Source: Hymenoscyphus infarciens (taxonomy: Eukaryota; Ascomycota; Leotiomycetes; Helotiales; Helotiaceae). From it: a stretch of DNA of 64,000 bases. The first letter of the stretch is position 1. The number at the start of each line of letters is the position of its first letter. This document shows positions 2,155 to 36,168 of this stretch, in pieces. Under the pieces are notes generated by a model. That model had not been told where the DNA came from. It worked only from the letters and a program-made list of their open reading frames with translations, and ran no database searches. The position numbers and the translations under genes are program-made. Location: NCBI GenBank assembly GCA_001414345.1, contig LLCB01000034.1, positions 62,001-126,000 of the forward strand, read 5' to 3'.

Positions 2155-2821
2155 ATTTGGAATCATTGCTGTAATTTGGGGCTTTCTTCCTTCTTTCCCG
2201 ATTTCGGGACTTCTACTCTTAATTTTCTAGGGGCCTTGGGTACGGGAGATGTAACTCATGTGTGGATTTCGCTTATTTCAACCTCCAAGTTTAGGCGCAA
2301 TAGTAGGTTGTTATCTACTTCTCGCGAACGAAGAAAATTGATTATTAGTTTACTATTCGTCTTCAGCTAATACAAACAATATATTGTTTGACTGGGCTTT
2401 TCCGGGGTTCTACCTTTATCAGTGACAAGATTCTTATAATTTAATATTTATAAGTGGTATTAAGCATCACGTGATGGGGATATAAAAGTGGCAGGACAGT
2501 ATTTAGTAGATTCCATGAAAGGTAGAGAATAGAGTGTAATGACCATAATGTAGAATTGATATTCGCACTCTCAACTTTTCAATTGTGTTTATGTTTAGGA
2601 GCCATTTTTTCCCATCTGGTAAACCTTCACACATGAGCTATTTTCAGCCGAGATCAGCCTATTGGTAATATGGAACGAGTTTCTAAAAGCTAATAAAAAT
2701 ACAAAAAATACAAAAACACCCTGGTATACATTTACGAACCTCCTTGTGTGTAAATAGCCAGCTTTAAACCAAAACAGAGAAACACAAAAGCCAAGTCGAC
2801 TCCCTGATATGAAGCAACCCC
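2155..2821. other. Spacer between convergent genes
   Basis: AT-rich spacer holding the 3' ends of the esterase (+) and of the lysozyme-like gene (-). I see no further gene. Confidence 0.5.
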
Positions 2822-3725
2822 TTAAAACACAACCCCAATGACTCGGTTTGCAATATCGCTCGAATAAGATGGAGTAGCAGCAGGCTCGTCCTCAGTATTC
2901 ACGGCCAAATCGCTTCCAGCTTTGTAACTGTTTAACCCGGAATTATACAGCCGAGCACTGACGAAAGCGCTCTGGCTATCGCTCTTACTCCCCAAGTCCT
3001 TCTTTGCCTTATCAATGCCCTGCTTCAATCCATCACCTTCCTTTGTACAGGAAGTTCCATCATGGATCATTCCCACGATCTTAGCTTGAGAACATGGATT
3101 GGAGCCGACGTCCACACAGTGATTTTCCCCATTATGCGATTGCATGATACCCGGGTTGTTGATTTTATCTCCTGGTGAGGCAGTGGCGCCAACTCTAACG
3201 CATCCGTGGGATTCTTGTATAATTACTGCGAGAATGTAGCGCGCATCTACCCCACTAATTTTGGATTCTGAAAGGATACCGTCGTGGATGAATTGTGTTT
3301 CCTCTGCAGAATTTTGGGGAATTGGTGCGGTGCAAGATTTTCCGATGCTGTCCTTGTTGGCGGCCCAGCTGTATAAATTGTCAGTTTGAGTGATAATGGT
3401 GTAGGCATTTGATGAGGACTTGCAGTTTTTCAAACTCGACCCATTTGTCAACTGATGGCCATCCAGATGCTTCATCTCCAGGTCCCTTGAATTCTGTAGC
3501 AGTGGTGGCAGCAGCAGCGATTGTTACTGGTGCTATTGAGTCTGATGGGAGGCTGGCTTTACCCGTGCTGGATGGAATTGCAATTGTTGACGCATTCGAC
3601 GTAACTGTAGCATTGATCTTTGCTGCTTGGCGTTGGACGAGACCAACGTTTCCGTTCAATGGAGCTGCGAATGTGCTGCCCGCCAAGGCGAGAACTGCAA
3701 GAAATGCGACTTTGGAAGAAGACAT
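2822..3725 (-). CDS. Secreted lysozyme-like (SLT-type) protein
   Basis: Fungal secreted protein with a lysozyme-like fold, about 282 residues. Exon 1 is 3424-3725 and exon 2 is 2822-3368. The ATG at 3725 starts a signal peptide (MSSSKVAFLAVLALAGSTFA); a slightly longer frame upstream opens only with TTG. A Ser/Thr/Ala-rich linker follows, then the conserved core with GWPSVDKWVEFEKL, the likely catalytic glutamate in VIIQESHGCVRV, and NPGIMQSHNG. Conserved cysteines suggest disulfides. The two exons join in the conserved frame (EKL then WAANKD) only if the 55 nt intron uses a GC donor (GCAAGT) with TACAG as acceptor and CTGAC as branch. No ordinary GT donor gives this product. Activity on peptidoglycan or chitin is inferred from the fold, not shown. 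Confidence 0.75.
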
Positions 3726-17990: not shown

Positions 17991-19784
17991 ATTTTTAATT
18001 TTTTTCTGTGGTGGAAAATACCCAAATGGAAAAGAGTTGCACAGTTTCGGAATGTTTCGGTTTTCAGCTTGTTGATCTTTATGGTTGTGTTGCGTACCCG
18101 GAGACTTTTGTGTTTAGTTACACTTGTATTGCTTCAGCTTATGCTGCAAGGATTTTCTTATGATAATTCTTCTCAGTCGGAACTTGCGCTCTCTCAGGAT
18201 ACCATCTCTTTTTCCACCCTTGGATACGCACCGTCCAGACTCCAAAGAAATCCCTCCTCTCAAATCAAGATATAATTCCCAACCCACCACCCTACTGAGA
18301 TCTCAACCACCATCCCTTGGAATCGGGTCCAGACTAATCAGAGCAAAATCGAGTCTTCTGTACAACCTCTCACCTACTCCCCTATCCTACAGCCATCCGA
18401 GTCCTTTCATGCAGCTAACATGCTCCGACCCACGACATCCTACCCACGTTTTCTTCTTCTTTATTACTGGTATTCCTTTATTCTTCTTTTTTTGGTGTTC
18501 CTTCTTCTTCTTTCCCGAGCTCATACATATCAAGTGACCTCTGCTTCCTTTGGGATTTGTTTTGTTGCACTTCGAAATTTTTCAATCACCGGCTGGCTGC
18601 ATGCAGTGTAGGTCTTGTGATTGGTGCTCCGATGGGTCACTGGAATCTTGGGATGGGTAAGTGGTGGGTGATATGGGTGTACGGGTGTACGGGTGTGGAA
18701 GATGTGGTACCTGCGGGGTTGTACGGGCTTTTTGTTTTTGTTTGCATTTCGCGGGGAACAAACATCGGTGGGCTGCGAGAGAGAGAGGATGAGGGTGTGT
18801 GGATGAGGTTGAGCTTGGGGGGAAAGGGAGTGAGTCGGAAAAGAGGTGAGGGTTGGTAGTGTGGCTTGGAGGGGTGAGCATCGGGCTCGAAGTTGTGTTA
18901 CGAGTATTGATTGGGTTTTGAGAGGAGACTTGAGAATGGAGGATAGGTAAGTAGGGCGGTAGTTGTGATACCGATGATAGCACAGGGGATCTCTTTACTT
19001 GAGGCACCTGGTTTCTGGCTCTGCTCTTGTTTTTTCGCCTGTTGAAATTTGTAATTTTGTGTAATGTGGTGGGGAGGGAGGGGTAAAAGTTGCTCTTTGA
19101 ATCTTTATGTTCTTCAAGGTTAACCAGGTGCCAAGGTTTGAAGAGGCTCGTTAAGTTTATCTTTCCTTTTCTTGGAAGATTTCGTTGGCATTGCAATTAG
19201 GAAGCTTCGAAAAAGCAAAAGACAAAGTGAAGGCCTGTGAGTCACCGCTTGCGTAGGTACCTTTTCGTATTTAGCTATAGCCTGTCGTGCCTGTAGTCTT
19301 CAAACCAAAGAGATGATTTAAGTGGGCGCTTAAAAGCGTAAACTTGAGGTTGAACTTTTCAACTTTATATACCCTACCTTATCTACTTCAGAGAATTAAG
19401 AGGCCGGCTTAACAATGTGCCATCTTTGCAAGCTGCTCTTACCCTTATCATTTAGGTTGAAGTTCAATTCTTCAATGCGTATGAAGGAAGACTGATAGCA
19501 AACTGTGAATGGAAAGTCAACTGTCACCTAGTACTCGTACAAGACATAGTACAGAAATTCAGCCTAAACCCAGATTCCCATTTTCTGCCCACGTCTTCAA
19601 ACACGGCCAGTATCCTCTCCTCCAAGCCTTTCTTTAGTATTACCCACACCGCTTATCAGAATTCCCGAAAAGACCCCGCCAATGAGAATATCAACCAGTC
19701 CCCACAACACAAAGAATCTGCAACTTTGAACACAAACCTAAGCCTAAATACGTAGAACTGCTTCAACAACTACAATATTCCCTA
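17991..19784. other. Spacer with polypyrimidine tract
   Basis: No gene recognised. The segment 18430-18510 is a dense T/C tract. A 204-codon open frame on the minus strand (18582-19196) is of biased composition and has no domain, so I do not call it. The right end is the 5' flank of the tRNA-Phe gene. Confidence 0.45.
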
Positions 19785-19936
19785 GCGGCTTTAGCTCACT
19801 TGGGAGAGCGCCAGACTGAAGTCCACTTCAGACCCTTGAAATCTGGAGGCACTGTGTTCGATGTAAGCAGCACCTACCTATCTACCACAAGCCTCACAAT
19901 CAGAAACTAACACTCTCTCCAGCCACAGAAGCCGCA
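19785..19936 (+). tRNA. tRNA-Phe(GAA) with two introns, one of spliceosomal type
   Basis: Every stem pairs perfectly once two introns are removed. The acceptor is GCGGCTT/AAGCCGC (7/7), D stem GCTC/GAGC, anticodon stem CCAGA/TCTGG with loop CTGAAGA (anticodon GAA), T stem CTGTG/CACAG with loop TTCGATC, and discriminator A at 19936. Intron 1 is 19 nt after G37, the canonical site, and contains CTTCAG, which can pair with the anticodon region as in other tRNA-Phe introns. Intron 2, 19863-19922 (60 nt), sits in the T loop between bases 59 and 60. It starts GTAAGC, has ACTAAC as branch and ends CTCTCCAG. The insertion splits the right half of the B box. T runs suitable for Pol III termination occur at 19980-19984 and 19987-19991. 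Confidence 0.88.
19863..19922 (+). other. GT-AG (spliceosomal-type) intron inside the T loop of tRNA-Phe
   Basis: This 60 nt intron has the donor GTAAGC, a consensus ACTAAC branch site, a pyrimidine tract and a CAG end. Size and signals match introns of protein genes in this window. The T loop TTCGATC and 3' acceptor strand are restored only when it is removed exactly. Confidence 0.85.
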
Positions 19937-20952
19937 ATTCTGCGAATGACAGCTAACTGTCATCGATCTTCGAACCAACTTTTTGCTTTTTGCCCTTTCC
20001 CCCCTCGATATAAAGGGAGGACTTGTGTAGGGTACCGTATTACCTGGCATCCATTTCTCGGAAAAGCAACGCACGAGCCTGGCTTCTGTCTACCAATTGG
20101 AATTCTCTGAATATTCGTTATCTAATTGGCCGCATGACACGTGACACTCCCACTTTCTATTTGCCCCATCCATGTCCATCCCCAGTTTTTGTTTCCCTCG
20201 AGCACCAGAGCGGTGAAACAAGAAAGTGGACATGCTTTTTCTGTTGCAGCGGCATGTCACGGGCGTGTTTAGGGTACATACGATGCGTACGCACGAGAGG
20301 AGTGACGATCGATGATGGTGCAACTCTTCATTATTGCGACATGAGACTTTTCCTTTTCCTAAATTCTCAATTTGAAAATGAAAAAATGAAAAAATGAAGA
20401 AGAAAAAGAAAAGAAGAGATAGTGATGAGTTGCTCCTCTTTCGCGGAGACAAAATCGGGTGTTTTTTGGTCATTGGAATTTATGTAGAGTATTGGATCTC
20501 CAGTTGATTGGCCTTTGTTTCGTATAGAGTAAGCTGACAAAGCTTCTTACGGCATGCCTGTGGTGGCAGGCTGACACGAGTGAAAAGCCACCAGGGTGAC
20601 ATTCGAAACGCCTGCAGGTGCACGTGCACGTGCACTCCCACTCCTCCGCCCTGGTCTGCATTTAGCTTGCACCCACTAGGATCCTCCATCCTCCTCGGGA
20701 GGGGGAAATGGGGAAATGACAGCCAACGGATTCAACCCAGACGAACAAGCAATTCGGTCGCATTTTCCTGACATCCCTCCATCGAGAAAAACCATCGATG
20801 ATTGAAACCAGCATTTTGACGGCATTTACGGTATCATCGGATGAACGAGGCAGAATCAATCTCGCCGCCAGAACCAGAGAGGACAATGCTTTGGCGATGT
20901 TTCGTACCAGAAAATCCCGGTTCCGCATTGGAATCTCCATCAAGCAAGCATG

Positions 20953-35154: not shown

Positions 35155-36049
35155 TACTGGTAAGAGGTGGCGGACAAGAATAGATAAGAGTTGTTTAGCG
35201 TCATTAAGACGTATAGAGGTGGGTGATATTTTTGGACACGCTACGAGAAGGATTGACCGTCTTTTGTAGCGACCGGATCAACCTGAGGGCATCAATTTCA
35301 TTACTATATTATCGTGTCTATCTCTAATATTGCCGAGTTCTATCTAAGAGAAGTACTTGATTCATCTGATTCATCTAGAGAAGCTTCGCCTCTTCCGATG
35401 TTGAACGTCGCTAGTCCTCAGCCGCATAGCCTTCCTCACCTCCCCCCCTCCTATCAACATCAATCTCTTATACCTGTATATCTATTAACCCTCTCTCGCC
35501 GGTAGCTTCTCTATAATCATGGGAATTCTCGTAAACGTCCTCTTCGGTGCTCTCCCGGGTCTCTTCTCCGACTGTCAACTTATCCCCTAAGCCTCTAGTA
35601 AAAATAATAAATCATTAGATCTCTTTTCCAATTCGGAACCAGGCTTATTACCAAACACTATGTTTAGCAAAAGAACAATTGAGGTGTATAGTATTCCGCA
35701 AACGATAGCACTTGAAACAAAGGTCGAAGGCGGGCCACATTGCGCACTGATTACAAGTTCCTACTACCTACTAAAACCCACAAACCTTAGCCAAAATTTT
35801 ACTCTAAGATTTAGCTTAAAAGCAGCTTAATCATCCACCGTGTTTGTACTTAGTTCAATATAAAAGGTAGTGTTTATCACTGTTCGTGAAATCGACATAG
35901 GTGAAAATGTAGAGATCCACTTGGGAACTCGCACCTACTTAGCTCTAGATATATTACCTCGTTTCTTCTTCTCAACTCAAACAAATTCAAATCCCAAAGC
36001 GCCGCTTAAAATAGCGCTTAACTTCAACGCGCAAAAAAGAAGTCAAAAA
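35155..36049. other. Spacer
   Basis: No gene recognised. Its right end is the termination region of the 5S rRNA gene. Confidence 0.4.
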
Positions 36050-36050
36050 A
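36045..36050 (-). terminator. Pol III terminator of 5S rRNA
   Basis: Run of six T residues on the minus strand directly at the 3' end of the 5S sequence. Confidence 0.7.
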
Positions 36051-36168
36051 CATACAACAGCAGGTATTCGCTGGTGGTCACCCACCCAACTACTAATCTG
36101 CCGATCTGGGGCTTGTGTATGGCAGAGCGGACGGGATGCCCATTTCTCCCCAGTCTATGGTCGTATGT
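36050..36168 (-). rRNA. Solitary 5S rRNA gene
   Basis: A complete 119 nt 5S rRNA on the minus strand. It begins ACATACGACCATAG and ends CTGTTGTATGT, so the terminal helix pairs. It has the conserved GGGCATCCCGTCCGCTC loop, the internal promoter region around GATTAGTAGTTGGGTGGGTG, and a compensated helix CTGGGG/CCCCAG. Six T residues follow directly, as a Pol III terminator. Scattered 5S genes are usual in Pezizomycotina. Intact pairing suggests a functional copy, and it has no intron. Confidence 0.93.

Follow-up and report, generated by a model that had tools for sequence, protein, structure and literature searches.

Probable spliceosomal introns in the tRNA-Phe genes of a leotiomycete genome, with similar inserts in tRNA-Ser genes and probably one tRNA-Leu gene

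U6 snRNA genes of fission yeast and other fungi contain mRNA-type introns, for which excerpts of PMC10484740 give reverse splicing as a proposed origin, and a paper cited there and in PMC5832005 states in its title that splicing of the U6 intron is impaired in pre-mRNA splicing mutants. U6 resembles the case described here in that a structured Pol III RNA is split by an intron of the mRNA type, but there the host RNA belongs to the spliceosome itself, and its maturation involves only one splicing system. In the genome analysed here, the four U6 matches above the cut-off span 95-105 nt and hence hold no intron. The U3 snoRNA genes of fungi are a second precedent (passages in PMC10484740 and PMC5832005, as for U6). 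Here, too, GT-AG introns of the mRNA type, recognised from similar anatomical features, interrupt a small structured RNA, but U3 is not a tRNA and its introns lie almost all in one 5' stem-loop. The nuclear rDNA of ascomycetes has spliceosomal introns at several sites, according to a passage in PMC11889510 that cites Cubero 2000 and Bhattacharya 2000. This, too, is a non-coding RNA gene with spliceosomal introns at more than one place, although it encodes a Pol I rRNA and not a Pol III tRNA.

Within tRNA genes, ectopic introns are described for archaea, nucleomorphs, and the red alga Cyanidioschyzon merolae, where they interrupt the D, anticodon, and T arms and in archaea also position 59/60 (excerpts of PMC4090602, PMC3978253, and PMC8450103). 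Several introns per tRNA gene are described for archaea in the same three sources and for one C. merolae gene in PMC9602550. Such introns differ from those presented below in being removed by the tRNA endonuclease, mostly from bulge-helix-bulge folds, and the excerpts describe neither GT-AG ends nor a branch site for them. Eukaryotic tRNA genes are limited to one intron in the relevant part of the tRNAscan-SE 2.0 paper (PMC8450103), C. merolae being the known exception (PMC9602550), and the corresponding passage of a 2026 review treats tRNA splicing as independent of the spliceosome (PMC13149111). In the open-licence literature, we came across no description of a spliceosomal intron within a nuclear tRNA gene, and the novelty would lie in a known intron class within a gene class for which no earlier report was found. 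Koehrer, Vogel, and Domdey (EMBO J, 1990) reportedly engineered a yeast tRNA precursor with a pre-mRNA intron that could in principle be spliced by the spliceosome. Theirs was an artificial construct, whereas the fungal tRNA introns described here are natural and lie in all tRNA-Phe genes found.

The gene under study lies on the plus strand of the window, by which we mean the whole stretch of 64,000 nt that was analysed. An earlier note had described a tRNA-Phe gene here whose T loop is interrupted by a GT-AG insert and whose G37 is followed by a canonical intron of 19 nt; our reading of the sequence confirmed this description, the gene being tRNA-Phe(GAA). The 5' exon (19785..19821) comprises positions 1-37 and is followed by the canonical 37/38 intron (19822..19840), whose CTTCAG is complementary to CTGAAG of the anticodon loop in this and in every other Phe copy found. 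The middle exon (19841..19862) holds positions 38-59, that is, the 3' side of the anticodon stem, the variable loop, the 5' side of the T stem, and TTCGAT. Between T59 and C60 in the T loop lies a spliceosome-type insert of 60 nt (19863..19922), which starts with the donor GTAAGC and ends in CTCTCCAG, with CAG as the acceptor. The predicted branch site is CTAAC (19907..19911); its branch A, at 19910, precedes the end of the insert by 12 nt. The 3' exon (19923..19936) supplies positions 60-73 (CCACAGAAGCCGCA). Downstream of it, a 43-nt trailer (19937..19979) with a hairpin (19947-19952/19957-19962) leads to TTTTT (19980..19984), the first T run 3' of the gene, which resembles a Pol III terminator.

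Taking 19863-19922 out of the gene leaves an acceptor stem of 7/7 pairs, a T stem of 5/5 pairs, and the loop TTCGATC, as the earlier note had stated. ARAGORN, which finds no tRNA in the window with the insert in place, then calls Phe(gaa). The Rfam tRNA match to the gene with its insert reaches 27.7 bits, under the cut-off of 29 bits. The insert boundary cannot slide. When 3160 different excisions were tested on this gene, 3 gave back the two stems together with a TTCRANY loop, the GT-AG excision being one of the three. As a chance background, we cut the window into all segments with a length of 51, 54, 57, or 60 nt and counted those that have the form GT...AG and contain CTRAY with its A 10-12 nt from the end; 13 of 511,556 did, which places the insert beyond chance even if the other copies are not counted.

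Searches for further tRNA-Phe genes covered the whole 65.6-Mb genome (742 contigs). The window gene with its insert as a query found five places, all of them tRNA-Phe, and the other four matched only up to the first bases of the insert (query positions 1-83). The joined 73-nt tRNA-Phe found the same five places, each match being broken after position 59. All five genes thus carry a T-loop insert at 59/60, and each also has a 37/38 intron. No uninterrupted tRNA-Phe was among the genes found in the 65.6-Mb genome by three different searches, the third of which used the joined 3' part as a pattern, tolerated as many as three mismatches, and gave three matches, none of them a tRNA. The earlier note had considered the case that all other tRNA-Phe(GAA) genes are ordinary; instead, five of the five found are interrupted. 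An ordinary copy could be absent from the assembly, given its 742 contigs. A sixth exact match to GCGGCTTTAGCTCA, on contig C138, is not a tRNA, and the pattern GACTGAAG...ATCT was too unspecific to be of use (194 matches versus 143 in the control).

The joined exons of the five Phe genes are identical at 73/73 positions in four copies and agree at 72/73 in the fifth, which has one changed base in the D loop and hence in the 5' exon. Their inserts are 51-60 nt long with mutual identities of 34-68%, and all keep GTAAG, CTRAY, and YAG. Constraint on exons and splice signals with a free interior is the mark of a working intron. Once the inserts are excised, four of the five genes have a cloverleaf as their lowest-energy fold, the exception being C734. 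The outline of the trailer is also common to all five copies: 40-45 nt of the form TCTGCGAA-hairpin-CGAAC, or a near variant, precede the T run. A search for this pattern with up to three mismatches returned only the five Phe genes and one trailer-like place, on C292, that is not a tRNA. In the hairpin, 96.7% of the pairs are kept and two of the six pairs change on both sides; since 40 of 500 shuffles reach the same, we take this support as suggestive only. The hairpin may keep the precursor together until splicing.

Six tRNA-Ser genes are interrupted as well; they were recovered by cross-reading two pattern searches and fetching short stretches. The insert lies at 60/61 in two Ser(AGA) genes (C158 and C721) and two Ser(GCT) genes (C723 and C287), and at 57/58 in two further Ser(GCT) genes (C715 and C12). 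The placement in C287, a gene with a divergent D arm, rests on 6 nt of 3' exon. The joined exons of C158 and C721 have identical sequences. Another Ser(AGA) gene, C63 (L163, G000 C63:1610-1708), has no T-loop insert and contains a 17-nt anticodon-loop intron, which C158 and C721 are without. Removal of this intron yields the joined sequence of C158 and C721, and does so at one place only. At the sequence level, C63 and C158/C721 are a natural plus/minus pair. Ser(GCT) C255 is uninterrupted. One acceptor pair is G-C in C715 and A-T in C12, a compensatory change across the insert. The pattern GTTCGANNGTAAG, with one N too many for the Phe genes, gave 24 matches versus 51 in the control, and yet four of them are Ser genes. 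We read six of the 24, namely these four and two that are not tRNA (L170 and L171); the other 18, unread, include five GTTCGATTGTAAG sites. Fragments matching tRNA-Ser and the tRNA of L071 were seen at G000 C113:42710-43033 (partly in L164) and C721:584827-584856. One such Ser/L071-like fragment lies about 380 bases behind an interrupted Ser gene, and the fragments are perhaps tRNA-derived debris.

The weakest case of the set is C224, which is probably a tRNA-Leu(CAG) gene with two spliceosome-type inserts. As we read it, a 54-nt GT-AG insert separates C34 from A35 and a 57-nt GT-AG insert separates C72 from A73. Between the two lies a canonical intron whose CTTGAA can pair with TTCAGG of the loop. 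The unmodified gene is Thr(cgt) with an 82-nt intron to ARAGORN, which calls SeC(tca) once the inserts are removed. The DNA around the gene is AT-rich.

Taken as a class, the 13 inserts in 12 genes (five Phe, six Ser, and one probable Leu) are all GT...AG and 50-70 nt long, and all contain a CTRAY branch motif with its A at a distance of either 10 or 12 nt from the 3' end. Donors read GTAAG in 11/13 and acceptors YAG in 12/13, and the boundary cannot slide in 11/13. The inserts are found at 34/35, 57/58, 59/60, 60/61, and 72/73. An excision scan of the 3' part was run on ten genes, leaving out C287 and both Leu inserts. One to three of the 2346-3160 excisions tried per gene restored the stems and the loop, and in 10/10 genes the GT-AG excision was among them. 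After excision, the acceptor stem has 7/7 and the T stem 5/5 pairs in all 11 genes whose 3' end was read (C287 left out). With the inserts in place, ARAGORN recognised just one of the 12 interrupted genes, and that one under a wrong name, so that similar genes may go unseen elsewhere. After excision, it called the isotype that we had assigned in eight genes, another isotype in three, and none in one. AAATAG forms the end of five of the 13 inserts, some in Phe and some in Ser genes; common ancestry or a constraint close to the 3' end may be the reason.

The mRNA introns of the same genome provide a yardstick for this class. An open-frame survey of 289,681 bases, admitting lengths of 44-80 nt and a branch A at 8-16 nt, yielded 32 intron candidates with a branch site versus 1 in the reversed control. 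The 32 were drawn from 112 candidates by requiring the branch motif at 8-16 nt, a filter that kept 1 of 21 in the control, and they include overlapping alternatives and one candidate inside the tRNA-like locus L072. Within the limits of the scan, they measure 46-79 nt and their commonest branch distance is 10 nt, followed by 12 nt, as in the tRNA inserts. Two introns of the GlyRS gene, recognised by eye between or within tblastn pieces, are of the same class as the tRNA inserts. The closest named proteins to the GlyRS of the window, at 86-88% identity, come from Coleophoma, Oidiodendron, Amorphotheca, and Hyaloscypha, which are genera of the Leotiomycetes, so that the genome belongs to a filamentous ascomycete. 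By the marks of U2-type introns, all 13 inserts have a GT donor and an AG acceptor at the exact exon boundary and a branch motif at the usual distance of this genome, and their 50-70 nt fall within the 46-79 nt of the mRNA candidates, in a scan that admitted 44-80 nt.

Very probably, then, the window gene is a working nuclear tRNA-Phe gene whose T-loop insert is a spliceosomal intron of the U2 type, because all five Phe genes found carry an insert at 59/60 in which the splice signals agree and the rest of the sequence has diverged. This supports the view of the earlier note that the insert is a GT-AG intron of the spliceosomal type and that the precursor would need two splicing machineries, and extends the insert class to all Phe genes found, to Ser genes, and probably to Leu. 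We infer excision by the spliceosome from the anatomy of the inserts and the comparison of paralogues. Other intron identities fit poorly. None of the inserts is a canonical tRNA intron, as none sits at 37/38, where the window gene has its separate 19-nt intron. A group I or group II intron is rejected for the window insert, as no covariance model of either class matched at E up to 10 in 19600-20100; all inserts measure 50-70 nt. A recent introner copy is rejected for the same insert, as the query of gene plus insert matched the five Phe genes only.

The interrupted genes might instead be dead or decaying, with the working tRNAs made from ordinary genes. The uninterrupted Ser(AGA) C63 and Ser(GCT) C255, the Ser fragments elsewhere (L164 and L165), and the divergent D arm of the interrupted Ser C287 would agree with this. 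We consider it highly improbable, since three different searches found no ordinary Phe copy, the exons are conserved while the inserts diverge, every insert retains its splice signals, and the two bases of an acceptor pair on either side of an insert have changed together (Ser C715/C12). A tRNA pseudogene with decayed exons likewise does not describe the Phe genes, whose exons are identical bar one base in one copy, though Ser C287 does have its divergent D arm. Removal by the tRNA splicing endonuclease, as for ectopic introns of the archaeal or red-algal type, has just as slight a chance in our view. Archaea have such introns at 59/60 and elsewhere, and they also occur in nucleomorphs and C. 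merolae (passages in PMC4090602 and PMC3978253). Relaxed bulge-helix-bulge folds with both flanks can be drawn for 5/13 inserts, namely four Ser inserts and the first Leu insert, and the donor can pair with the 3' exon in four Ser genes. However, no Phe insert (0/5) forms even the relaxed fold, and the strict fold (3-nt bulges, a 4-bp central helix, and both flanking helices) is formed by 0/13; as the five 37/38 introns used as controls fail the strict test too, it excludes the archaeal motif only. Moreover, what is conserved is the donor, the branch site, and the acceptor, which the endonuclease would not need.

Alternatively, Pol II could read the genes within longer transcripts, which would be spliced there and release the tRNA afterwards. 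The inserts do resemble ordinary mRNA introns, and in 11/12 genes they fall within the consensus B box of the Pol III promoter or on its border. We rate this possibility marginally lower than the preceding two. Each of the five Phe genes is followed at 40-45 nt by a run of at least four T, and in the four interrupted Ser genes whose flank was read the distance to such a run is 9-21 nt. TTTT occurs in 1/13 inserts, compared with 3.9 expected from shuffling and with 12/32 mRNA candidates, though at a Fisher p of 0.07 this scarcity is a hint only.

If the inserts are spliceosomal introns of Pol III genes, processing could run as follows. Pol III would transcribe the tRNA-Phe gene through to the downstream T run. 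The spliceosome would remove the GT-AG insert in the nucleus, and would act first because the T arm and the acceptor stem cannot form properly before. The cloverleaf would then form, RNase P and RNase Z would trim the ends, and the tRNA endonuclease and ligase would remove the 37/38 intron last. The different insert positions in different genes point to several gains, and spliceosomal introns probably entered tRNA genes that are functional and read by Pol III on more than one occasion. One possible route would be the reverse splicing that has been suggested for U6.

The insert positions also bear on the promoter. GTTCRA, the core of the B-box consensus in the internal Pol III promoter, is unbroken at four of the five insert places. 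It is kept at 59/60 in the Phe and at 60/61 in the Ser genes, and its last base is changed by the inserts at 57/58. Sparing of the B box may be the reason that inserts were seen most often in the T loop directly behind A58. On balance, we think it likely that spliceosomal introns repeatedly invaded Pol III tRNA genes in this leotiomycete lineage, at about five positions, one of them within an anticodon, and became fixed in every cytosolic tRNA-Phe gene, so that all decoding of Phe codons would need the spliceosome and then the tRNA endonuclease. On this view, insertion just at the 3' border of the B-box core would have been favoured because it spares the promoter. Such genes would break the rule that tRNA splicing is independent of the spliceosome and would tie translation directly to pre-mRNA splicing. 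They would also make it possible to study, in a natural setting, the way in which transcripts of Pol III come to the spliceosome and the way in which non-coding genes acquire introns.

Of 3357 candidates in the tRNA family search, 63 were scored, and tRNA genes are therefore undercounted. In total, we read 47 nuclear tRNA or tRNA-like genes (33 + 5 Phe + 7 + 2), 12 of them interrupted, leaving out the Ser fragments L164 and L165; as Phe and Ser genes were sought on purpose, 12/47 is no rate. A concatenated query of yeast and Arabidopsis tRNAs matched only its included Leu. The tRNA-like locus L072 (G000 C145:40351-40526) is a nuclear gene called SeC(tca) with a 104-nt intron, whose TGAAG could pair with CTTCA of the loop; its UCA anticodon is odd for a fungal nuclear tRNA. 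Phe exons had no match in viral contigs, and scans of the viral and prokaryote collections gave no fungal match. The T-loop insert pattern matched viral contigs 15 times, never with GACTGAAG upstream, and we took these matches for phage coding DNA. The anticodon-arm pattern of the fungal tRNA-Phe occurs exactly in 45 stretches of prokaryote genomes (L115-L159), all archaeal by title and most of them from Thermoplasmata/Thermoplasmatota. The window also contains a 5S rRNA gene on the minus strand at 36049-36168 (Rfam RF00001, 76.2 bits).
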